Below, in pieces: positions 1-26,521 of a DNA stretch of 43,363 nt. The stretch's first letter is position 1. Every line of letters begins with the position of its first letter. The notes below the pieces were generated by a model. The model made no database searches. It was not told the origin of the DNA and saw only the letters and a list, made by a program, of their open reading frames with translations. The position numbers were made by a program, and so were the translations under genes. This stretch comes from Nitrospirota bacterium (GTDB taxonomy: Bacteria > Nitrospirota > Thermodesulfovibrionia > Thermodesulfovibrionales > UBA6898), in NCBI GenBank assembly GCA_024275975.1, contig JAJRYC010000014.1, forward strand, positions 1-43,363, written 5' to 3'.

Positions 1-86
1 ATTGCAGGGAGAGGTGTTTTTAAAAACTGGGAAATGTGCCCGGTTCAGCTGAATTTGAAACTGTTTGTTGCAATATAGATTGAACA

Positions 87-809
87 ATGACTACTTGGAT
101 TATGGATAGAGCAATTTTGCTCTATCCGCAACAGGAACTAGCTATGTTCAGTTTAAATCATGAAGTGCGCCCAGTTTCATACATAGGTAAAGGCTTTGAA
201 CATACCTTTGGGCGATCTCTAAACATGAGGTTAGAATGGCCAAATCCAGAGAAAGTGCCGGAAGATATAAAACAAAAAATAGAAAATGATATTTTTGAAG
301 TTGTGGAAGATGCCTTGCTAAGCGGTGTGATAAACGGTTCATCAGTGGAGCATCTATTTCCTAAATTGGATTTATCTGCGGATATTAAGTTTCGTGATCA
401 CCTTATGACGTGGAAGGGATGCGCTTCATCTGCCACTGAGGAAGAATTGAGCAGGCAAATCTACGCAATTACATATCAAGATATATTTGATTCCATTTTT
501 TCAAAAACCGTTGAGTTGGGTATTTCTACAGAACAATTTGTAAGTATTGGAGAAGAAGGTATGAATAGGCTCATTGATATGATGCCTACCCGGAAAGTAG
601 ATATGTGGTTGAGAGACCGATGGGCCAGAAATGGAGGGTTAATACCCAAAATTTCCGACTTAAATGATTGGTGCTATGTGGGGTCTGCAATCCCATATTG
701 TGATTTTGTAGTAACAGAAAGCCAAATGGATGATCTGTTATCCAGATCAGCAGTATATAAGTCTAAAGTTACATCAGAGCTTTCAGATTTGATTGGAAAA
801 TATGCCTAA
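87..809 (+). CDS. Unrecognised 240-residue protein, possible integron cassette gene
   Basis: I do not recognise the family. The protein is soluble-looking, with no signal peptide or membrane segment. A Trp/Arg-rich stretch (KVDMWLRDRWARN, about residues 169-181) is followed by a C-terminal segment AIPYCDFVVTESQMDDLL (about 203-220). That segment resembles the closing strand of PIN-like proteins (a small hydrophobic residue, then YCD, then a T/E-x-x pattern), but this is only a weak resemblance. The coding sequence is clearly AT-richer than the gene that follows. Its TAA stop lies inside the R'' box of an attC-like site, the arrangement usual for integron cassettes. No good ribosome binding site precedes the ATG, which is also common in cassettes. 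Start is the first ATG of the open frame and is uncertain. Confidence 0.6.
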   Translation: MTTWIMDRAILLYPQQELAMFSLNHEVRPVSYIGKGFEHTFGRSLNMRLEWPNPEKVPEDIKQKIENDIFEVVEDALLSGVINGSSVEHLFPKLDLSADIKFRDHLMTWKGCASSATEEELSRQIYAITYQDIFDSIFSKTVELGISTEQFVSIGEEGMNRLIDMMPTRKVDMWLRDRWARNGGLIPKISDLNDWCYVGSAIPYCDFVVTESQMDDLLSRSAVYKSKVTSELSDLIGKYA

Positions 810-865
810 CAAATTCAGCCGACCCAATACCGCACCGCTCCTACCGTCGCTCTGCAGCGTTAGCC
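804..865 (+). repeat. attC-like recombination site (integron cassette end)
   Basis: The 62-bp segment begins with GCCTAAC (804-810, fits the R'' consensus RYYYAAC) and ends with GTTAGCC (859-865, close to R' GTTRRRY). Inside, CAGCCGAC on the left can pair with GTCGCTCTG on the right with a small bulge, giving the imperfect L''/L' stem expected of attC. No integrase gene and no second attC is visible in the window, so this would be a lone cassette. Folding of the bottom strand was judged by eye only. Confidence 0.5.
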
Positions 866-943: not shown

Positions 944-1630
944 ATGATTATTGAAACAATGAGTCCCAAAAAACAGGAAAAACAGGTTGTCTCAAGAAAA
1001 CGAGTCGCCGATCATGGCGAGGTGCTGACCGGGAAGCGGGAAGTCAGTGCCATGCTTGATCTGGTGAAACAGGAAACGGAGCGAATCGAATCCCGGTTCC
1101 TTGAGCCTGCCTGTGGGACGGGCAATTTTCTGACGGAAATCCTGGAGCGGAAACTGCGCATCGTTGAATCGCGGTACAGGAATAGCCAGTTGGAATACGA
1201 GCGGAATTCCGTGCTAGCCATCTCGAGTATCTACGGCATAGACATCCTTGAAGATAATATCCTGGCATGCCGCAAACGGCTTTTTGATATCTTCGACCAG
1301 CGATATAGCCGCCTGTTCAAAAAAGCTTCAAGAGACGAATGCCTGAATACCGCCAGCTACATACTTGAACACAATATCATCCATGGTGATGCTCTTACGC
1401 TGAAGACGACAGGTGACAATCCGCAGCCAATAGTTTTTTCAGAGTGGTCCCCAGTCAACGGAAGTATGCTCAAACGAAGGGATTTCACCTTTCACGGATT
1501 GCTCGAGCATGAGAGCATGAAAGAATTGCCTCTTTTTTCTGACCTGGGGGAGGATGTTTTTATTCCTGAACCGGTAAAGGAATATCCACTAATTCATTTC
1601 CTGAGGGTCGCCGATCTTGAACAGCAATAA
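944..1630 (+). CDS. DNA methyltransferase subunit carrying the SAM-binding half (restriction-modification)
   Basis: A short (228-residue) N-6 adenine methyltransferase-like protein. The SAM-binding motif I is intact ([12 protein letters not shown], about residues 50-61), followed by a motif II-like segment ([11 protein letters not shown], about 91-101). No catalytic (D/N)PPY motif is present; that is found in the next gene, so the two products probably make one enzyme. The N-terminus ([20 protein letters not shown]) matches the usual opening of this methylase family. The gene overlaps the next by 14 bases, so they are translationally coupled. ATG 944 overlaps a TATAAT box (940-945); if that box is a real -10, translation would start at ATG 959. 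Neither ATG has a clear ribosome binding site. Confidence 0.75.
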
Positions 1631-3125
1631 CTACAATCCGGATGTGCTCACCTGTCTTGCGAACCTGAGCAACGATGAGGTCTTTACGCCGCCGCAACTG
1701 GCCAACCATATTCTGGACTTGTTGCCACCGGAAATCTGGAGCGATAAAAACGCCACTTTTCTTGATCCGGTTAGTAAATCAGGCGTGTTTCCGCGGGAGA
1801 TCGCCAGGCGGCTGGATGCAGGGCTGGAAACTGAAATCCCGGATAAGCAGAAACGGATTAACCACATTTTCAGCAATCAGCTTTTCGGCATTGCCATCAC
1901 CGAGTTGACCTCATTACTCTCTCGCAGAAGTGTCTATTGTTCCAAGACGGCCAACGGGAAATATTCCGTCTGCGAGCGTTTCGACGATCCACAGGGCAAT
2001 ATCCGTTTTGAACGGATCGAGCATAACTGGAAAAACGGGCGCTGTGTATTCTGCGGTGCCAGTCAGGCCAACTATGAGCGCGGCGAAGAACTTGAAACCC
2101 ATGCCTATCAGTTTATCCATACAGAAAAACCAGAGGAGATATTTAATATGAAATTTGATGTGATTATAGGAAATCCTCCCTATCAGTTAAGTGATGGAGG
2201 GTTTGGAACAAGTGCAAAGCCTATCTATCATAAATTTGTTCAACAAGCTAAAAAATTGAATCCACGATTTTTGACTATGATTATTCCTGCTCGCTGGTTC
2301 TCGGGAGGGAAAGGATTAGATGAATTTAGAAACGAAATGTTGGTTGATGACAGAATCAGGGAAATCCATGATTTTCCAGATGCGACAGATGTATTCCCAG
2401 GTGTCCAAATTAAAGGCGGCGTATGCTATTTTCTTTGGAGCAGAGACAGTAAGGGTATTTGTAATGTAAGCACTTATAATCAAGGTGGTCTTATCTCCTC
2501 AGCCACTAGACCATTGTTAGAAAACAATGCAAATACTTTTATTCGTTATAATGAAGCAGTGCCGATACTAAAAAAAATACAATCACTTGGCGAACCCTTA
2601 ATTAAAGATAATATAAGCGCAAGAAAACCTTTTGGATTATCAACTACATTTAAAGGGGGACAGCAACATTTTAAAGGGAGTATAACCCTTTATCAGAATG
2701 GTGGTATCGGCTATGTGAAATCAAACGAAATAAATAGTAATGACGATATCGTAATGTTATATAAGGTATTAATACCCAGAGCTGGCAGCGGTAGCGACTC
2801 ATTTCCTCACTCCATATTAGGTAAACCATTTGTCGTAGAACCAAGGAGCGCATGCACAGAAACATATATTGTAGCCGGTAGTTATGACAACAAGGAAGAG
2901 TGCCGCAATTTATGTTCTTATATAAGCACCAAATTATTTCGTTTTTTAGTTTTACTTATCAAACCTACACAAGATGCTACCGCAAAAGTTTATTCCTTCG
3001 TTCCAATCCAGGATTTCAGCGAACCCTGGACAGATGAAAAACTGTACAAAAAATACGGTCTGACAGAAGATGAGATCGCCTTTATCGAGTCTCTGGTTCG
3101 CCCAATGGAATTGAACAATGCGTAA
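1617..3125 (+). CDS. Eco57I-type DNA methyltransferase / specificity subunit
   Basis: A 502-residue Eco57I-family restriction-modification methylase. The catalytic motif [12 protein letters not shown] (about residues 180-191) is intact, and [14 protein letters not shown] about 40 residues later is typical of the family. The region in the motif I position reads [15 protein letters not shown] (about 48-62): the usual glycine-rich G-x-G is degraded, so SAM binding may rely on the preceding protein. A CxxC (VFCGAS) region with other Cys residues lies at about 142-147. The C-terminal half probably recognises the target sequence. The start is TTG 1617, inside the end of the upstream gene; the encoded N-terminus ([20 protein letters not shown]) looks complete. 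It overlaps the next gene by 8 bases. Codon use from about 2150 to 3000 is noticeably AT-richer than in the first part, suggesting a mosaic origin for the target-recognition half. Confidence 0.8.
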
Positions 3126-3480
3126 GGAACAGGCGCTTGCGGTTTTTGATAATTATAAAATCCGCAGAGTATATGATGAAAAGTCGGAAATGTGGTTATT
3201 TTCTGTTGTGGATATAATGGTGGCACTTACTCAGCAGCCGGATTATCAGACCGCCAGAAAATACTGGAACAAGTTGAAAGAGCGGCTCAAGAAAGAAGGA
3301 AGCGAGTCGGTGACAAATTGTCACCAACTAAAACTGGAAGCCGCTGACAAGAAGAAATACACGACCGATGTGGCAAGTCCTGAAACCTTATCAGGTAAAA
3401 AAGTGGTCACAGGTGAAAACTTTCTGCCGCCATCAAAACCTGAAAAGAGAATCAGGGGAGGTCCCGGTGAGCGCAAATAA
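3118..3480 (+). CDS. Bro-N domain protein, internally shortened
   Basis: A 120-residue protein starting with a Bro-N (phage antirepressor-like) domain: [50 protein letters not shown] and TNCHQLK are all family hallmarks. Relatives I know of with this N-terminus (DinD/BRO-like) run on for about 150 more residues after the ...DVA position. Here the sequence jumps at about residue 87 to a short segment ([18 protein letters not shown]) that looks like the extreme C-terminus of such proteins. I infer an in-frame internal deletion. The gene sits between the methylase and helicase genes, overlapping both (8 and 14 bases). Proteins of this type are often found embedded in restriction operons; their role is unknown. 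Function of the short form is doubtful. Confidence 0.6.
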
Positions 3481-5986
3481 GTTCTTCCCCCAGCGGCCTG
3501 AATCTAAACCGACCATCTACGCTTACGAAGACACCAATCCACAATACAAAGGGCTGCTCAAGGTCGGCTACACCACGGTGGATGTCCAGGCGCGGGTCGC
3601 ACAGCAGTATCCGACTGTAAGGCCCGGCAAACCGCCTTACCGGATTGTGCTGGAAGAGTCCGCCATGCGTAGTGATGGAACAGCCTTTGCCGATCACGAA
3701 GTTCACCGCTGTTTGAGAAGCATGGACGTGAAAAACCCCGAAGGCTAGTGGTTCGCCTGTTCGGCGGATGAGGTCAAAGCAGCGGTGATCGCCGTGCGCA
3801 CCGGTGAGATGAACGAGGAAAACCGCACGCTCGACTTCAAGATGCGACCTGAGCAGTTGGAGGCGGTGGAGAAAACAGCCGCCTACTTTGAGGGCATCCA
3901 AATGGAAAGTCCTGATAAACCTCCGCACTTCCTCTGGAACGCAAAAATGCGCTTCGGGAAGACTTTTGCCGCTTATCAACTCGCTAAAAAGGTGGGCTGG
4001 CGCAAGGTGCTGGTGCTGACCTTCAAACCGGCGGTTCAGACCGCCTGGAGGGATGATTTGAAAAGCCACATTGACTTCAGGGGCTGGCAGTTTATCTCCC
4101 CCGGCGGCCTGACCTATGAGGATGCGGACAAAAAGAAACCCTTCGTCTGTTTCGGGTCGTTTCAGGATTATCTGGGCAAAAACAGAAGCACCGGCGGGAT
4201 CAAGACCAGGAATGAATGGGTGCATACGACCAATTGGGATTGTGTCATTTTTGATGAATATCATTTCGGTGCCTGGCGCGATAACGCAAAGGACCTTTTT
4301 GAGGCGGAAGACAGGAAAGAGATCGAGTTCGGTGAAGGTGTTGGTCTGAAGGATTTCGATGAAGAGATTATGCCGATCACGACAGACGCCTATCTGTATC
4401 TTTCCGGCACGCCGTTTAGGGCCATTGCCTCGGGCGAATTTATCGAGGAGCAGATATTCAACTGGACCTATTCGGATGAACAGCGAGCCAAGCAGGAATG
4501 GGATGGTGAGGACAACCCATACGCGCCACTCCCCCGCATGGTCCTGATGACCTATCAAATGCCGGATGCAATCCGCGAGATCGCCATGATGGGAGAGTTT
4601 GATGAGTTTGATTTGAATGTCTTCTTCTTGGCGGAGGGCACCGGCGCTGAGGCGAAATTCGAATATCAGGATGAAGTGCAGAAGTGGCTGGACTTGATTC
4701 GGGGCGCGTTCCAGGCCACCACCGTTGACAACCTGAAGCTGGGTGCTAAAAAGCCCCCTATGCCGTTTTCGGATATCCGCCTGCTGAATGTGCTGTCGCA
4801 TACTTTCTGGTTCCTGCCCAGCGTTGCCTCCTGTCATGCCATGCGTAATCTGCTGGAACAAAAGCAGAACCGGTTTTATCACGATTACCGCGTGATGGTA
4901 GCTGCGGGAGGTAGTGCGGAGATCGGCGCAGCGGCCTTGCCACCCGTGCAGGATGCAATGGACGACCCGCTGAAAACCAGGACGATTACCCTGTCGTGCG
5001 GGAAGCTGACCACCGGGGTGACGGTGAGGCCGTGGTCGGGGATATTCATGCTGCGCAATTCTTCCAGCCCGGAAACCTATTTCCAGGCCGCTTTCCGTGT
5101 TCAGTCGCCCTGGACTGTCATGAATCCTGACGCCGCCGCGCCGAATCAGGAGCAGATTATCAAAGAGGAATGCTATGTCTTTGACTTCGCGCCCGACAGG
5201 GCCTTGCGGCAGATTGCCGATTACAGCTGCCGCCTGAATATCGATGAGTCAAATCCCGAGAAGAAGGTTGAGGAGTTTATCAGCTTCCTTCCCGTTCTGG
5301 CCTATGACGGCAGTTCCATGAAACAGATTGATGCGGCGGGTATTCTGGATATAGCGATGAGCGGGACGAGTGCTACTCTGCTGGCAAGGCGATGGGAAAG
5401 TGCGCTGCTGGTGAATGTGGATAACAGCACTTTGCAGCGACTGATGAGCAATGAAGCGGCTATGAAGGCCCTGATGAACATTGAGGGGTTCCGTACTTTG
5501 AATCAGGACATCGAAACTATAATCAACAAGTCGGAGGCGGTCAAAAAGGCGCGGAAGAACAAAAACGACGAAGAAATGTCCACAAAAGAGAAGAAGGAAC
5601 TTACCGAGGCGGAAAAGGAATACAAGGGCAAGCGCAAGCAGATTCAGGAAAAGCTCATTAAATTCGCCACCCGTGTCCCGGTGTTCATGTATCTAACAGA
5701 CTACCGGGAAAGAAGCTTAAAAGATGTAATTACAAAATTGGAACCCGGTCTTTTTAAGAAAGTTACTGGATTGACAGTGAAGGATTTCGAGCTGCTCGTT
5801 AGCCTGGGGGTTTTTAATAGCGCATTGATGAATGACGCGATCTATAAGTTCAAAAGATACGAGGATGCAAGCCTGGTGTATGTTGGTGTCAACAGGCATG
5901 AAGGCGAGGATATTGGCCTGTTCGACACAGTTTTGAGTTCGGAGGATTATACTGCGACATTTGAGAATGTTGCGGAAAAAGCATGA
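3467..5986 (+). pseudogene. GIY-YIG nuclease-DExH helicase fusion interrupted by an in-frame TAG
   Basis: One reading frame of 839 residues from GTG 3467 (GGGGAGG at 3455-3461 is a good ribosome binding site) to the TGA at 5986, broken only by TAG at 3746-3748 (codon 94). The N-terminal part is a T5orf172/GIY-YIG-type nuclease domain (YAYEDTNPQYKGLLKVGYT; DHEVHRCLRSMDVKNPEG). The stop replaces the residue before WFAC; relatives read NPEGEWF, so the change is probably GAG to TAG. The rest is a superfamily 2 helicase: MRFGKT (motif I, K165), DEYH (motif II, D263), LSGTPFRA (motif III) and YFQAAFRVQSPW (motif VI). A Lys/Glu-rich coiled-coil stretch follows at about 600-640. It would be the nuclease/translocase subunit of the preceding restriction cluster. 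A second start (GTG 3785 or later ATG) could still yield helicase without nuclease. Confidence 0.8.
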
Positions 5987-6165
5987 ACTTAATTAACATA
6001 AGGCAAAAAGTGTCGGGCTCGATTTTGTGCATTTAATTGTTTCATCACTTTTTCAAATGTGCTCTTCCCCTGCTTGCTTTCAGCTGCCTGCGACCATCAG
6101 GTAGGAGCCGGAATATCTCTATCTATTCCCTACATGCAATGATTTTGCTTCCATTCATTGTGCAC

Positions 6166-6428: not shown

Positions 6429-7898
6429 TCACTCCTTTTTTAGATTATCGGTATATTGGGGAAAAGATTTATGGGCACCAGAAATATTCTTTTCTTTACC
6501 ATTAAAGTACAATGTATTACCAATCCTCATGTATAGCACAGCATCGTCTTTTTCACTTGCAGTTGAATCAAGAACTATCTCAGCTACACAGACGCCCTTT
6601 TTGTAGTCAGCTAAAGAGCTTATTTCCATTACCCATACGAAATGTGGCAGCTCGATGTTAAGTATAAATGAATCCAGCTTATCATGTCCAGCCCTAATAT
6701 TTCCTAACTTACCTCTTTTAAAGGATTTGTTTGTAGTAATGAAAAACCTTGTTACCCACGGCCTGCCAGAATATTTTTTAAGTTCATTTATGAAATGCCT
6801 GAAATACTTCATAGCCTTTTGTTTCGCCTTTTCTGCAGGTAGAAACGCCTTTTCCGGAAGCGGACAGACTGCGGTAACAATAGAATTGATTGAATACCCA
6901 CCAGCAGGATAGACTTTTGCATAATTATCAGGATCGTCTTCATATCCAAGCAGTGCATACGGGAAAAAGTTGTCATCAATTGTTATAAATTGCTTGAGAA
7001 AAGAAAAGCTGTCTATGAAACCATCACTATCTTCAATATACGGCCTGTCATAGTCGATAGTATGTCCAACTAAAGCAATAACATGCCCGGCAAAACTAGC
7101 TAGAACAGGGAATCCAGACTCAATATAAGTATAAACTTTTTTTAATTCTTCCGGGTCAGCAGCAGTAAGGTGTGTATGTTTCTTAACGCTCACAATTACA
7201 GGATAAACACCAAATGATGACAGAATCTGGGAGTAATCTGCATATGTCATTCCTCTATAAGGAAAAGTACGACCTAGAGAAGTCCCTGTCATTTTTACCA
7301 GGTCAAAAGGGTGCACTTCACTGTATAATGTGTATCTCTCAGATAAATATCTGCAAATGGCCCAAAGAGCAGAGTGAGCACACACTGTAACATCGACATC
7401 TTGTGAAGTATATGGAAACCCTTGAACTTTAAATTTTGCACCATGAAGATGAACAGCAAATTCTGTAAGCAAGTAATAAGAATTTCTGCTAGCTCCACCA
7501 GTTATCGCATAAGGATTAATTACCGTTCGCCCTATGCATCGCTCGCTAACTTGCCTTATAATGCTGTAGCCAATATATTTTTCGGAATACTGCTCAGAGT
7601 AATAAAGCAGCTCATGGATGTTTTTAATTTGATCCGAAAAGAAATGCATTCGACATGTTCGGGGAGATGGCATGGAAAATTTTTTAGAATAGAATTGGCT
7701 GAACAAATTTTTATGGTCTTTACATATGTAATTTTGTTCTAAAACTATAGTGCGAACTGACTCCTTTAGGTTTCCATAAAGCAGTTTGTATCCCCATACG
7801 GATAAGTTTTTACATTCTTTTTGGACACTCTTACATACCTGCTCTTCACGACCAGCGTCAATGGAAATAAGTTTTGATTCAGAGTATATATTTTGCAT
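6429..7898 (-). CDS. Papain/C39-like cysteine-protease-fold protein, unknown function
   Basis: A 489-residue cytosolic-looking protein. The central part carries the layout of a papain-like or C39-like peptidase: Q166 and C173 in SQDVDVTVCAHSALW, then H272 in SFAGHVIALVGH about 100 residues later, then an acidic position in FITIDDNFFPY (D308/D309). The spacing Gln-7-Cys and the GHVIALVGH strand are the parts that persuade me. The N-terminal 130 residues and C-terminal 150 residues show no domain I know. It is the first gene of a two-gene operon, driven by a good promoter 30 bases upstream and ended by a terminator. It is very AT-rich compared with the neighbouring metabolic genes and lies between a defence cluster and core genes, so it was probably acquired. 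Activity as a protease is inference. No clear ribosome binding site precedes the ATG. Confidence 0.65.
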   Translation of the reverse strand: MQNIYSESKLISIDAGREEQVCKSVQKECKNLSVWGYKLLYGNLKESVRTIVLEQNYICKDHKNLFSQFYSKKFSMPSPRTCRMHFFSDQIKNIHELLYYSEQYSEKYIGYSIIRQVSERCIGRTVINPYAITGGASRNSYYLLTEFAVHLHGAKFKVQGFPYTSQDVDVTVCAHSALWAICRYLSERYTLYSEVHPFDLVKMTGTSLGRTFPYRGMTYADYSQILSSFGVYPVIVSVKKHTHLTAADPEELKKVYTYIESGFPVLASFAGHVIALVGHTIDYDRPYIEDSDGFIDSFSFLKQFITIDDNFFPYALLGYEDDPDNYAKVYPAGGYSINSIVTAVCPLPEKAFLPAEKAKQKAMKYFRHFINELKKYSGRPWVTRFFITTNKSFKRGKLGNIRAGHDKLDSFILNIELPHFVWVMEISSLADYKKGVCVAEIVLDSTASEKDDAVLYMRIGNTLYFNGKEKNISGAHKSFPQYTDNLKKE

Positions 7899-9922: not shown

Positions 9923-11158
9923 ATGAAACGGTTTCTTGTCAAGAGAAATTTTCTCTTTTTTGTCTGTATCCTCTTCTTTCTGATCGCCTGGAACAGGGAG
10001 ATCAACCTGTTATACGGCATGTTCGCCCTCATTTCAGCAACCATCATAATCTCCCATATTTATCCGAGATATTCTCTCCGGGCTGTTTCCGTCACAAGGA
10101 CCTTGCCGTCTACGGCATTTGAAGGTGATACCATCTCCCTCGATGTGAATATTATTAACAGGGCCGCAACCAGCCGTCACATGATTGAAGTGCTTGATTC
10201 GGTCCCGGCGGCGGAACCCGGAATGAGAACCCCGATGACCTTTATCGCAAAGCTGCGCGGCAGGAAAGACAGGGCGTATTCTTTCAAAGTTATGTGCTAC
10301 AAACGGGGTGAATATTCTATCGGCCCCCTTACCTTGACCTCTTCGTACCCCCTTGGAATAACCTCCGCGGAAAAATCATTCTCTGGTGAGATACAGCCGC
10401 TCCTTGTGTATCCGGAAATGTTTGATGTCTCGTGCTTCCCTTTTGTTTCCGGCAGCAGCTTTCCGGCAAGCGGGCAGGAAGCAATTTCCAGGGCGGGTGG
10501 AAGTGAGGATTTTTTCGGAACCCGTGAGTACAGAGAGGGCGACAGCCTGAGGCATATACACTGGCCATCTACCGCCAGACATGGGGAACTCATTGTTAAG
10601 GAATTTGAAATAAGGGCTTCTTCGGAGGATACTTTTCTGATCGACCTGCACAGAAATTCCGATATCGGGACTGAAAAAGAGAGCACCCTGGAATATGCCG
10701 TAAAAATAGCCGCGTCTCTCTCAAAGTACGCGATGCAGAGAGGACATAGCTTTCAATTCATAGGTTACGGAATGAGACCTCATATTGTGACCTATGGGAA
10801 AGGGGAGAGCCACCTGGCGTCGGTATTAGAGACGCTTGCGCGGGTCAGGCCGGACGGGAATGTTCCGTACTCCCTGGCGATAAGAGAGACTGCTGAGTTT
10901 CTGAAGGACGGCAGTACCCTCGTTTTGATTTTCAATATAACAGAACAGAACCTGGATGAATATCTCTATAGCATGGCGCTTCTCAGGGCCAGAAGGATCC
11001 GGACTGTCTGTGTTTTTCTCAATGGCCGGGGGTTTCTTGAGGGGAATGATTCATCAGGGCATGAAAATAGTCCGTTAATACAGGAATTCCTGGCAGAGGG
11101 AGCGCCTGTATACTTGATTAACAAGGGGGACGACCTTTCAGCGGTCTTTTCGATATGA
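9923..11158 (+). CDS. DUF58 domain membrane-anchored protein
   Basis: A 411-residue protein with two N-terminal hydrophobic segments (about residues 9-25 and 29-46) followed by a cytosolic domain. The DUF58 signature EDFFGTREYREGDSLRHIHW (about 192-211) with the following STARHGELIVKEFE is complete. The downstream part has a von Willebrand A-like fold pattern (DTFLIDLHR). Together with the MoxR ATPase upstream and the transglutaminase downstream this is the standard MoxR-DUF58-TgpA set, thought to act at the cell envelope. The ATG is one base past the MoxR stop, and the TGA overlaps the next ATG (ATGA). Confidence 0.88.
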   Translation: MKRFLVKRNFLFFVCILFFLIAWNREINLLYGMFALISATIIISHIYPRYSLRAVSVTRTLPSTAFEGDTISLDVNIINRAATSRHMIEVLDSVPAAEPGMRTPMTFIAKLRGRKDRAYSFKVMCYKRGEYSIGPLTLTSSYPLGITSAEKSFSGEIQPLLVYPEMFDVSCFPFVSGSSFPASGQEAISRAGGSEDFFGTREYREGDSLRHIHWPSTARHGELIVKEFEIRASSEDTFLIDLHRNSDIGTEKESTLEYAVKIAASLSKYAMQRGHSFQFIGYGMRPHIVTYGKGESHLASVLETLARVRPDGNVPYSLAIRETAEFLKDGSTLVLIFNITEQNLDEYLYSMALLRARRIRTVCVFLNGRGFLEGNDSSGHENSPLIQEFLAEGAPVYLINKGDDLSAVFSI

Positions 11159-13383
11159 ACCCGATACAATATCCTCCCGTATATATCGGACTCTGGTTTC
11201 TTTTTTTGATATCCGTATCCGCCGCGACCGCAACTCGCCTGTCATTAGGAATGACCGTGCCGGTCACCTTGTTCTGGGCGGTTGTTTACGGAGCAGGGCT
11301 GTTCAGCGGCTGGTATTTCAGGGAGAAAAGATCAAATGAGCTGAAAATCGCAACTAACATCCTTGCGGTGCTGTCCATTTTTGTCTTTATCATCATTAAC
11401 TTTATCCAGGGATTGGAGACCGCATTTCTGGTCTTTATCATATCCCTGCAGGCGATAAGAAATCTCACCCTCTTTAACCGCAGGGATTTCTACTTCGCCT
11501 TTATTGTTTCTCTGATGCTTATTTCTTATGCGGCCAGTGCAGGGAAAGAGACCTATTTTATCTTTTTTATTATTGCGTATGTTCTGGTAGCGGTGTTCAC
11601 GCTGATGACGGATTACATCAATGACAGGCTGGCCCATACCCGGGGCGGGGATAAAGAGATACTCTTTAATAGGATGAATCTTCCTGTAAAGGGCGGCGGC
11701 ATCGCCATTGCCGTAATAATACTTGCCCTGCTCATATATTTCGTGACCCCGAGGTTCCCGTCGCCTCACATCCAGACCTTTCCTGCAAGCGGATGGTGGT
11801 ATGATAGGGATGAAATGTCCCAGCGGGATGCCCGGAAATCCGGCCTGAACGAACAGAACGGCGGAGGGGAGCCTGATATCCAGGGTGACGGATATTATTA
11901 CGATCAGACATCGGATAAATCCGGATATGCGGGGTTCAGGGATAAATTCGACATTACGGACCGGGGTTCGTGTACTCTGGAAAATAATATAGTATTTTAC
12001 CTCCAATCGAGCCAGCCCATCTACGCGCGCGGAAAGGTCTTTGATACATTCGACGGCAGGGTCTGGGGGGATTCACAGTTTGGGAACCGGATATTGGAGG
12101 GCGATAGAGGGAAGTTTGTTCTGGCGGATGATGTTAAATCGCAGGGACTCGGACAGGTCTATATTATCGAGGAGGACCTTGCCGAGTTTATTTTTACCGC
12201 CTATAAACCTGTAACCTTATGGTTTCCCGGCGATATAGTAGAGCAGGAAGGTGATCTCAGCCTGAAAGCGCCCGGTTTTTTACGAAAGGGCACAAAGTAT
12301 TCCGTTCTCTCTGACGCCGGAGGCATTGGGCGCATGCCGGCATCTGACGACCCTGACGACCCTGACGACGGTCACGGGGATTACAGGTATCTTCAGCTCC
12401 CGGATTCGATCTCCGAACGGATGAAGCAGCTCACTTATTCCATCGCCGGAAGCCGGTACGGCAACTACGGAAAAGCCGCGGCGATAGAGGAATATCTAAA
12501 GACCAATTACCAGTATACGCTCAAAACAATGTTCAGGGAAAAGGGGTATGATACCATAGAAAAATTCCTCTTCACATCCGGGGAAGGGCACTGCGAATAT
12601 TTCGCATCGTCGATGGTCCTTATGTTGAGAATCCTGGGCATTCCCTCCCGGCTGGTAACAGGATACACGGCAACACGCTTTAATCCGATGACAGGATACT
12701 ATGAAGTTAAAAGACTTGATGCCCACGCCTGGGTCGAAGCATACATTGACGGATATGGCTGGATGGAGTTTGAACCCACACCGCAGTTCGAGATGCCCGA
12801 AGGAAAAGACAGCAAAGACAGTTACTTTGTTACTCGCGATTTTCTTCAATATATCTCCGGGCAGATGAATGACCTGATAAAAAGCAATCCCGAAAAGTGG
12901 TGGGCTGAGATTCTGCGGAAATTGCTGGACCTCTGGAATAGCATCAAAGCTTTTATTGGAAAGCTCTTGTACATATTGCGGGATACCGTTAAAAATCTGT
13001 GGTACTGGTTTAAGGGAACCGGCTGGATGATAATCAGCTTAATGTTTTTTGTTGGTGTTTCCGGTTGTTGGATCTATCACTCCGTGGCCCCGGTAATAAG
13101 GAGACAGCGGATGAGAATGATGAAGGAGACTGACCCGACGCAGTTTGTTCTGCGATGCTACCTGGAAGTGGAACGGATATTCGCTAAAAAAGGCGTGCCA
13201 AGGCCTCTGCACTATAGTCCCAAAGAATACAGGGCGGATCTGCTCAGGAGATTCAGCAATCTTTCGATGCAGATAGACCTGCTGACAGACCTCTTTGAGA
13301 TCGCCAGATATAGTGCTATTCCGGTGAGCAGTCAAGAGGCGGAGGAGGCTGATAAAGCTTATGATTTCATACTCAGACATTAG
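11155..13383 (+). CDS. TgpA-like membrane transglutaminase
   Basis: A 742-residue membrane protein. Residues 1-210 hold about six membrane segments (DUF3488-like). A periplasmic transglutaminase-core domain follows with GHCEYFASSMVLMLR (C480), LDAHAWVEAYIDGYGW (H524) and FEPTP (E540 where many homologues have Asp). A further membrane segment lies at about 622-645, with a cytosolic C-terminal DUF4129-like tail (HYSPKEYRADLLRRF). A short Asp/Pro repeat occurs at about 398-407. In Pseudomonas, TgpA is an essential envelope protein; the substrate is unknown. The TAG stop is the first three bases of a 164-bp inverted-repeat element, so the native C-terminus may have been slightly altered by insertion. 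Confidence 0.88.
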   Translation: MNPIQYPPVYIGLWFLFLISVSAATATRLSLGMTVPVTLFWAVVYGAGLFSGWYFREKRSNELKIATNILAVLSIFVFIIINFIQGLETAFLVFIISLQAIRNLTLFNRRDFYFAFIVSLMLISYAASAGKETYFIFFIIAYVLVAVFTLMTDYINDRLAHTRGGDKEILFNRMNLPVKGGGIAIAVIILALLIYFVTPRFPSPHIQTFPASGWWYDRDEMSQRDARKSGLNEQNGGGEPDIQGDGYYYDQTSDKSGYAGFRDKFDITDRGSCTLENNIVFYLQSSQPIYARGKVFDTFDGRVWGDSQFGNRILEGDRGKFVLADDVKSQGLGQVYIIEEDLAEFIFTAYKPVTLWFPGDIVEQEGDLSLKAPGFLRKGTKYSVLSDAGGIGRMPASDDPDDPDDGHGDYRYLQLPDSISERMKQLTYSIAGSRYGNYGKAAAIEEYLKTNYQYTLKTMFREKGYDTIEKFLFTSGEGHCEYFASSMVLMLRILGIPSRLVTGYTATRFNPMTGYYEVKRLDAHAWVEAYIDGYGWMEFEPTPQFEMPEGKDSKDSYFVTRDFLQYISGQMNDLIKSNPEKWWAEILRKLLDLWNSIKAFIGKLLYILRDTVKNLWYWFKGTGWMIISLMFFVGVSGCWIYHSVAPVIRRQRMRMMKETDPTQFVLRCYLEVERIFAKKGVPRPLHYSPKEYRADLLRRFSNLSMQIDLLTDLFEIARYSAIPVSSQEAEEADKAYDFILRH

Positions 13384-24502: not shown

Positions 24503-26452
24503 ATGGCATTACCAAACAAGCCATTGGGTGAATTAGTAGCAACTATAGATCCTGCTATCGAAGAGCTTGAAACAGATATTCTGTTTGTCGGCGGCGGAAT
24601 GGCGGTATGCGGAACAGCGTATGAGATCAGAAAGTGGGCGCCAGAGGGCACCAAGATGCTGCTTTGCGACAAGGCTGCACTCGAGAGAAGCGGTGCTGTC
24701 GCCCAGGGTCTTTCCGCTATCAATACATATCTGGGCGAGAACACCCCCGACGATTATGTAAGGATGGTAAGAAACGACCTTATGGGTATCGTAAGGGAAG
24801 ATCTGATCTTTGACGTTGGAAGACACGTTGACAGGTCGGTTTATCTGTTTGAGGAGTGGGGACTTCCTATCTGGAAGACCGGAGAAGACGGAAAGAGCCA
24901 TGACGGTTCCAAGGGCCTCACCCCGCTTAAAGAGGGCGGCAAGCCGGTACGTTCAGGCCGCTGGCAGATCATGATCAACGGTGAGTACTACAAAAGGATC
25001 GTTGCCGAGGCTGCGAAGGCCGCATTAGGTTCGGATAATATCATCGAAAGGTGCTTTATCGTAAAGCTCGTTCTCGATGCCAATGAGCCGAACAGAATTG
25101 CCGGAGCTGTCGGATTCAGCGTCAGGGAAAACAAGATATACGTAATCAAGACCAATGCGATGATTGTTGCATGCGGCGGCGCGGTTAACGTCTTCAGGCC
25201 GAGGGCGACCGGTGAAGGTATGGGCAGATGCTGGTATCCAGTATGGAACGCCGGTTCAACTTATACAATGTGCCAGGAAGTCGGTGCTGAGATGACAATG
25301 ATGGAGAACAGGTTCGTGCCTGCGAGGTTTAAGGACGGCTACGGTCCTGTCGGCGCATGGTTCCTGCTCTTTAAAGCAAAGGCGACGAACACCCTTGGTG
25401 AGAACTACATGGTGACAAACGCCGAGATGCTCAAGCAGTATCCTCCATACGGCCTTGCCAAAGTACCTGCTTCCTGCCTCAGAAACCATCTCATGCTGAA
25501 AGAGATGAGAGAAGGAAGAGGACCTATCATTATGGATACACCGACAGCTCTCTCGAATCTCGCCGCGAACATGACTCCAAAGGAAGTAAAACATCTCATA
25601 GCCGAGGCGTGGGAAGACTTTCTTGATATGTCGGTCGGCCAGGCAGGCATCTGGGCGGGCATGAACATCGAGCCTGAAAAAGTCGGGTCCGAGATTATGC
25701 CTACAGAGCCTTATCTCCTCGGTTCACACTCAGGCTGCTGCGGTATCTGGGTTAGCGGTCCTGAAGAAGACTGGGTGCCTGACGCATACAAGTGGGGCTA
25801 CAAGGGCATGACAACCGTCAAGGGCCTGTTTACCGCAGGTGACGGCACAGGCGCATCCGGACACAAATTTTCCTCCGGCTCACATGCAGAGGGCAGGATG
25901 GTCGCAAAGTCAATGGTCAAATTTGTCGGCGACAACAAGGACTTCAAGCCGGCTCTCAAGGAATCCATCAAGGATCTGGCAGACCTGGTTTACAAGCCTG
26001 TCAAGACATTCATTGACAACTTTGAGCAGACCACGGCAGCTGATCTAAACCCGAATTACATCAAGCCGAACGGGTTCCAGAAGAGGCTGATAAAGATCAC
26101 TGACGAATACGGCGGTGGAGTATCAACATCCTATGTTACAAGCAAGGCAATGCTTGACAGGGCTTTTGAGCTCCTCGGTATGCTCAGGGAAGACTCCGAG
26201 AAGATGGCGGCCGGCGATCTGCATGAGCTGCTGAGGGCCTGGGAGAATTACCACAGGCTCGGCACGGTCGAATCTCATCTGAGACATATCCTGTTCAGGG
26301 AGGAGTCCAGGTATCCTGGCTTCTACTACAGGTCGGACTTCGATATTGTTGATGAAGAGAACTGGAAGTGCTTTGTAAACTCCAAGTATGATCCGGAAAA
26401 GAAGGAATGGGATGTATTCAAGAAAGAATATGTCCAGTTAATACCTGACTAA
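24503..26452 (+). CDS. aprA: Adenylylsulfate (APS) reductase alpha subunit
   Basis: A 649-residue FAD subunit of APS reductase, which reduces APS to sulfite and AMP. The FAD-binding fold begins at TDILFVGGGMAVCGTAYEI (about residues 27-45). Other signatures are GRWQIMINGEYYKRIVAEAA, MIVACGGAVNVFRP, ENRFVPARFKDGYGPVGAWF, LGSHSGCCGIWVSGPEEDW and GLFTAGDGTGASGHKFSSGS. Length agrees with the family (about 620-670). A ribosome binding site GAGGAGG precedes the ATG. A very strong hairpin follows the stop, which could set aprBA transcript ends apart from qmo. Confidence 0.97.
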   Translation: MALPNKPLGELVATIDPAIEELETDILFVGGGMAVCGTAYEIRKWAPEGTKMLLCDKAALERSGAVAQGLSAINTYLGENTPDDYVRMVRNDLMGIVREDLIFDVGRHVDRSVYLFEEWGLPIWKTGEDGKSHDGSKGLTPLKEGGKPVRSGRWQIMINGEYYKRIVAEAAKAALGSDNIIERCFIVKLVLDANEPNRIAGAVGFSVRENKIYVIKTNAMIVACGGAVNVFRPRATGEGMGRCWYPVWNAGSTYTMCQEVGAEMTMMENRFVPARFKDGYGPVGAWFLLFKAKATNTLGENYMVTNAEMLKQYPPYGLAKVPASCLRNHLMLKEMREGRGPIIMDTPTALSNLAANMTPKEVKHLIAEAWEDFLDMSVGQAGIWAGMNIEPEKVGSEIMPTEPYLLGSHSGCCGIWVSGPEEDWVPDAYKWGYKGMTTVKGLFTAGDGTGASGHKFSSGSHAEGRMVAKSMVKFVGDNKDFKPALKESIKDLADLVYKPVKTFIDNFEQTTAADLNPNYIKPNGFQKRLIKITDEYGGGVSTSYVTSKAMLDRAFELLGMLREDSEKMAAGDLHELLRAWENYHRLGTVESHLRHILFREESRYPGFYYRSDFDIVDEENWKCFVNSKYDPEKKEWDVFKKEYVQLIPD

Positions 26453-26479: not shown

Positions 26480-26521
26480 CCCGATTGTGCCCGGGGTTTT
26501 GTACCCCCGGGCACAATCGGG
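26480..26521 (+). terminator. Strong hairpin between aprA and qmoA (partial terminator or processing site)
   Basis: A perfect 17-bp stem (26480-26496 with 26505-26521; arms start CCCGATTGTGCCC) with an 8-base loop TTTTGTAC. No U-tract follows, so it may be an mRNA end-stabilising or processing element rather than a complete terminator. Confidence 0.55.

Follow-up and report, generated by a model that had tools for sequence, protein, structure and literature searches.

A probable integron gene cassette, cut short by an insertion sequence, at a contig end in a Nitrospirota genome

Positions 141–865 of the DNA analysed here (the window, 43,363 nucleotides) are very probably what an insertion sequence has left of an integron gene cassette: its 3′ part. 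The draft genome (G000) comprises 2.51 Mb in 111 contigs, of which the window is C79, and position 1 of the window is a contig end. Confidence in the cassette reading comes from three observations: a close homologue of the gene lies in an array of attC sites; the two copies are identical to a degree far above the background; and the similarity between them breaks off at the attC core site. The features discussed below are as follows.

1–140, forward strand: end of an ISNCY-like insertion sequence, with copies on contig C91 of the same genome, on contig C111 of genome G194 and on contig L061
141–809, forward strand: 5′-truncated cassette gene, recognised from 94% amino acid identity to its homologue in genome G063 and from a seven-member alignment
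804–865, forward strand: attC site of the cassette, worn, recognised from its boxes, model scores and the array context of the homologue
866–943, no strand: spacer from the attC core site to the gene that follows, unlike G063 past the core site
944–5986, forward strand: restriction-modification-like genes, separate from the cassette, recognised from their families and from homologues without a cassette upstream
Contigs C37, C8, C85, C17, C23, C34, C45 and C16 (L123–L130): further attC candidates, 23.5–46.9 bits with the second covariance model described below

The truncated gene and its homologue

The leftmost bases of the window belong to an insertion sequence. Positions 2–144 are 97% identical to DNA on C91 and positions 2–140 are 77% identical to DNA on G194 contig C111; just upstream of both of these copies lies the C-terminus of a DDE transposase, which is 37% identical to proteins annotated as ISNCY. 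Positions 5–141 are identical to bases 1–137 of L061, and the four copies have GGAACTA (window 134–140) in common, after which their sequences diverge. The transposase C-terminus beside the copies constitutes the likeness to the ISNCY family; the difference is that only one end is present here, and a full copy, the other end and a target duplication were not identified. A perfect 10-bp hairpin lies within this end (104–127) and suggested an IS200/IS605 element or a group II intron as the source of the shared 137-base stretch; both candidates, as well as an attI site or a conserved array end, were dropped in view of the DDE transposase encoded beside two of the copies. Viral contigs contained no exact matches to two stretches of the insertion sequence, and plasmids contained no match to it.

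This boundary changes the extent of the gene, which the preliminary description had placed at 87–809. Since the insertion sequence runs to 140 and similarity to G063 starts at 139, i.e., at the insertion-sequence end, the first 54 bases of that open reading frame (87–140) derive from the insertion sequence and the protein has lost its first 97 residues: the rest of the gene encodes the last 221 of 318 residues, and the first start codon of its own is ATG 144. A search of this genome's bin for the missing 5′ part came back empty, a result that proves nothing by itself.

The 221 residues read from ATG 144 find matches in three of 394 genomes, their own included. In G063, from the same order but another family, all 221 residues are matched at 94% identity, within an intact gene (a 318-codon open reading frame at L121:9042–9998); in G336, only part of them is matched, at 31%. 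At the nucleotide level, window 139–832 is 94.6% identical to G063, compared with 66–75%, where alignable, for 9.9 kb of DNA elsewhere in the window, a disparity indicating that the cassette piece moved horizontally.

The surroundings of the G063 gene were characterised with two covariance models of our own construction. The first, built from 17 attC sites (11 from class 1 integron plasmids and six from integrase loci of relatives), was run on L061, on the G063 locus, L121, and on 40 IntI loci, 39 in relatives and one in G000; at E up to 1 it reported 55 matches and matched 23 of the 40 loci, four of which had supplied training sites, the match at L107 being only partial. The second model was built from these 55 matches. 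It finds attC sites in G063 at L121:6064–6196, 10439–10519 and 11977–12101 (40.0–46.2 bits), the last two of which belonged to its training set, and a weak one at 7594–7682 (16.2 bits). The first model, not trained on L121 sites, assigns 25.0 bits to the site at 10439, 15.6 to that at 11977 and 12.3 to that at 7594, and does not list the site at 6064. By eye, the apparent end of another attC, CGTTAGGC, lies directly upstream of the G063 gene. G063 has no IntI-family gene over the cut-off (best match, E 2e-20); its array is therefore a CALIN.

The two copies of the attC share R″ and L″, but both are incomplete: about 22 bases, most of L′ among them, are missing from the G063 site, and five from the window site. 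Both continue to CGTTAG and then enter dissimilar DNA; similarity thus stops at the attC core site, as would be expected of a cassette end. The preliminary description held that homologues without such a site at the 3′ end would speak against a cassette. The distant homologues (on Rhodococcus plasmids and in G336) have no visible attC, which speaks against a cassette; the close one in G063 sits in an array with a shortened attC, which speaks for it. Other cassettes of the G063 array (L121:5224–12506) give CoiA-type nuclease and PIN matches and weak HEPN and HicB-antitoxin matches; from these they look like nuclease or toxin-antitoxin parts. Palindrome-like stretches that recur between these cassettes (TTGCATAGTATGCAACAACG and similar, L121 near 5080, 7830, 8790 and 8945, found by eye) are perhaps a small mobile repeat.

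What does the cassette encode? The product is possibly a PIN-like nuclease, judging by motifs picked out by eye: in the seven-member alignment, the part kept in the window has a D..D pair and the missing part YLD...WI, and most members also have YCD.V in the former and FPL...ET in the latter. The gene is without a family in Pfam, NCBIfam and PADLOC; a Pfam search of its relatives gave weak matches to six unlike families, one member each. The PDB holds no credible relative (the best match, E 0.0013, is an unrelated-looking toxin subunit), and an AlphaFold2 model of the truncated protein alone has a mean pLDDT of 39. Viral contigs contained no relatives of the gene, and no plasmid match covered 80% of the attC. 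One Rhodococcus ruber homologue adjoins DISARM genes, a neighbourhood that would fit a defence role but proves nothing.

Integrases, scattered attC sites and neighbouring DNA

The preliminary description reported no integrase in view. This is true of the window, which is thus not a complete integron, but not of the genome, in which two IntI-family genes exceed the TIGR02249 cut-off on other contigs: a complete one on C80 (470 residues) and a truncated one on C14. The same search gave matches in 14 of 14 control genomes and none over the cut-off; IntI matches below it therefore mean nothing. The C80 integrase (L001:663–2075) matches the Pfam family Phage_int_SAM_4 twice, and its N-terminal domain may be doubled; IntI genes of relatives that pass the cut-off are often contained in open frames of more than 400 residues. 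The truncated C14 gene (L002:1501–2328) ends before the contig does, at what appears by eye to be the start of an IS200-type transposase.

On C80, neither model lists an attC within the first 12 kb. Across the genome, with 150 of 371 candidates scored, the second model gives at least eight further attC matches on eight contigs (E 3.5e-9 to 0.017). Nine matches on fetched stretches of the genome's contigs reach at least 23 bits; in six of them a same-strand open reading frame stops inside R″ or at most 13 bases before it, and in three it does not. Three attC sites are also found on L061, a contig of 3.5 kb that had been assigned to an Alphaproteobacteria bin (49.0, 29.3 and 25.0 bits with the second model, only the first site having been used in training). 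L061 ends in a repeat that recurs at contig ends of this genome, with 140 identical bases at those of C31 and C78 and 99% identity at those of C32 and C35, and it has 289 bases in common with C102 at 93%. These shared end repeats suggest that L061 probably belongs to the same organism as the window and was mis-binned.

To the right of the attC, several open reading frames at 944–5986 match an Eco57I methylase, a ResIII helicase and, at 3118–3480, a candidate-defence family. To look for an empty site, the restriction-modification gene was traced in other genomes; it matches 27 of 394 (its own included), four of which were compared. In G009, a member of the same family, similarity sets in at about window 915, the DNA upstream differs, and the locus contains no attC above 8.6 bits; the other three genomes diverge upstream of window 983–1001. 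The different upstream DNA in these homologues indicates that the module at 944–5986 is separate from the cassette. Two further details of this DNA can be recorded: the first two open reading frames of the module form one shorter, fused frame in G009, and a near-perfect 42-base inverted repeat at window 26480–26521, resembling a terminator hairpin, lies just after the open reading frame at 24503–26452.

How did a lone cassette come to lie here? The window has one attC, and its left side is cut by the contig end. In the terms of IntegronFinder, attC sites with no integron integrase beside them form a CALIN if two or more lie within 4 kb and a SALIN if there is exactly one; SALIN is defined in PMC12690207, and the distance of 4 kb for a cluster is given in PMC9668308. 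The text on IntegronFinder 2.0 in PMC9024848 states that single attC sites can be genuine and that draft assemblies split integrons. Within the cassette reading, there are two sub-cases. The first is that an integrase inserted a single cassette at a non-classical, attG-like site (a SALIN). This is possible, if a little short of probable: the second model, with filters off, finds no second attC candidate above 8.7 bits in the 43-kb window, its matches in the genome are spread over eight different contigs, and what follows on the right forms a module of its own; however, the left side is missing from position 1, and L061, with the same insertion-sequence end and three attC sites, suggests that the organism has arrays. 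Reportedly, attG sites were studied by Loot et al. in 2024. That cassettes were dispersed singly over many non-classical chromosomal sites by a long IntI with a doubled N-terminal SAM-like domain, the window being one case, and that insertion sequences recurrently land in them and inactivate them appears unlikely.

The second sub-case is that the window shows the right-hand edge of an array (a CALIN or an integron edge) broken by insertion sequences and by assembly. L061 starts with the insertion-sequence end of the window and shares its terminal repeat with C31, C78, C32 and C35 and 289 bases with C102, and draft assemblies tend to over-count CALIN and In0 elements, according to a passage of PMC9024848; yet the bin yielded no 5′ part of the gene, and no cassette follows to the right of the attC. 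We hold this second sub-case tentatively, as one that is nearly, but not quite, evenly balanced.

The attC site set against chance

The cassette reading also has to face the possibility that the site is no attC at all. The preliminary description gave GCCTAAC and GTTAGCC boxes 48 bases apart with the stop codon inside the first, and all of this was verified: R″ is at 804–810, R′ is at 859–865, and the TAA stop is at 807–809. L″ and L′ are at 816–823 and 846–854, and crossover is expected between 859 and 860. With respect to the attC consensus as quoted from PMC12901181 (R″, RYYYAAC; R′, GTTRRRY; crossover between bases 1 and 2 of R′), GCCTAAC matches and GTTAGCC is off at one position; the latter does match GTTAGSC, in which a published attC primer ends (PMC2669170, in the excerpt cited).

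The pairable interior that had been described is present but weak. When the bottom strand of 804–865 is folded, the R boxes pair and a short L stem forms (816–823 with 846–854, one unpaired base facing C819), but at −7.9 kcal/mol the fold is weak and no better than those of dinucleotide shuffles (z −0.62; 53 of 200 shuffles equally good). The top strand folds worse (−3.4 kcal/mol, z +0.60 against dinucleotide shuffles).

A covariance-model search, which the preliminary description had proposed as a check, singled out the site without giving it a high score. Neither model lists 804–865 with default filters. With filters off, the first model gives it 11.7 bits (E 0.19), the top score of the first 10 kb, ahead of a partial match at 10.3, and the second gives it 13.5 bits (E 0.21), the top score of the 43-kb window, the next being 8.7. 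Filters-off maxima elsewhere are 7.8 bits in 17 kb of L122 and 8.6 bits in L143; in L169, a 35-base chance palindrome beside a candidate at 33.7 bits reaches 12.9 bits with the same model. The score of 804–865 is marginal, near noise.

If neither fold nor score is convincing, could the boxes be accidental? Their exact arrangement was seen in none of 200 dinucleotide shuffles of the window, and GCCTAAC-N40..60-GTTAGSC was present in two of 200. The wider pattern GCCTAAC-N40..70-GTTAG occurs once in the whole 2.5-Mb genome, at the window site, against eight occurrences of a backwards control pattern. The loose consensus (RYYYAAC...GTTRRRY or GTTAGSC, 35–120 apart) is found in 190 of 200 shuffles (six observed, mean 5.43); loose boxes alone are therefore no proof of an attC. 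A chance box pair, or an ordinary gene-end hairpin, is very improbable: the weak fold, the marginal score, the ease with which loose boxes and a palindrome arise by chance, and the attC-less distant homologues speak for it, but the absence of the exact arrangement from the shuffles and, above all, a close homologue that sits in an attC array and whose similarity ends at the same core site speak against it. The cassette with an attC that was originally proposed is thus retained, mainly on account of the 94.6% identical copy in the G063 array and for a gene shorter than 87–809: its stop lies inside R″ and its homologue is in an array of attC sites, while the gene itself has lost its 5′ part.

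A possible history and its known counterparts

In the cassette reading, an IntI integrase would have moved the gene together with its attC, recombining the folded bottom strand of the site between 859 and 860. An insertion sequence would later have landed in the gene, removing or separating its first 97 codons, so that the gene would now be truncated or dead and the attC would have weak activity at most. What remains would be a remnant of the CALIN/SALIN type or else the margin of an array that insertion sequences and assembly have broken up. The case illustrates how insertion sequences cut cassettes. It also suggests that a lone, marginal-scoring attC at the edge of a draft contig can be a real cassette, given a relative that has the gene in an array, and, if L061 is rightly assigned from its end repeats, that pieces of an array can land in the wrong bin.

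Compared with class 1 cassettes whose attC sites are of the short type (58–60 bp), the window attC is similar in length (62 bp) and, by eye, in its GCCTAACAA...TTC.AGCCGA and ...CGTTAGCC elements; unlike theirs, its arms are shortened, its L stem is weak and it forms no strong hairpin, and the gene is no resistance gene. CALIN and SALIN elements are also close counterparts: the window has a cassette gene and an attC with no integrase beside them, and the homologue in G063 lies in an attC cluster without an IntI over the cut-off. The window differs from them in its marginal attC score, in the insertion sequence that interrupts the cassette gene and in the loss of the left side. The window cassette is probably an ordinary, degraded example of the well-known CALIN/SALIN class in an environmental bacterium.
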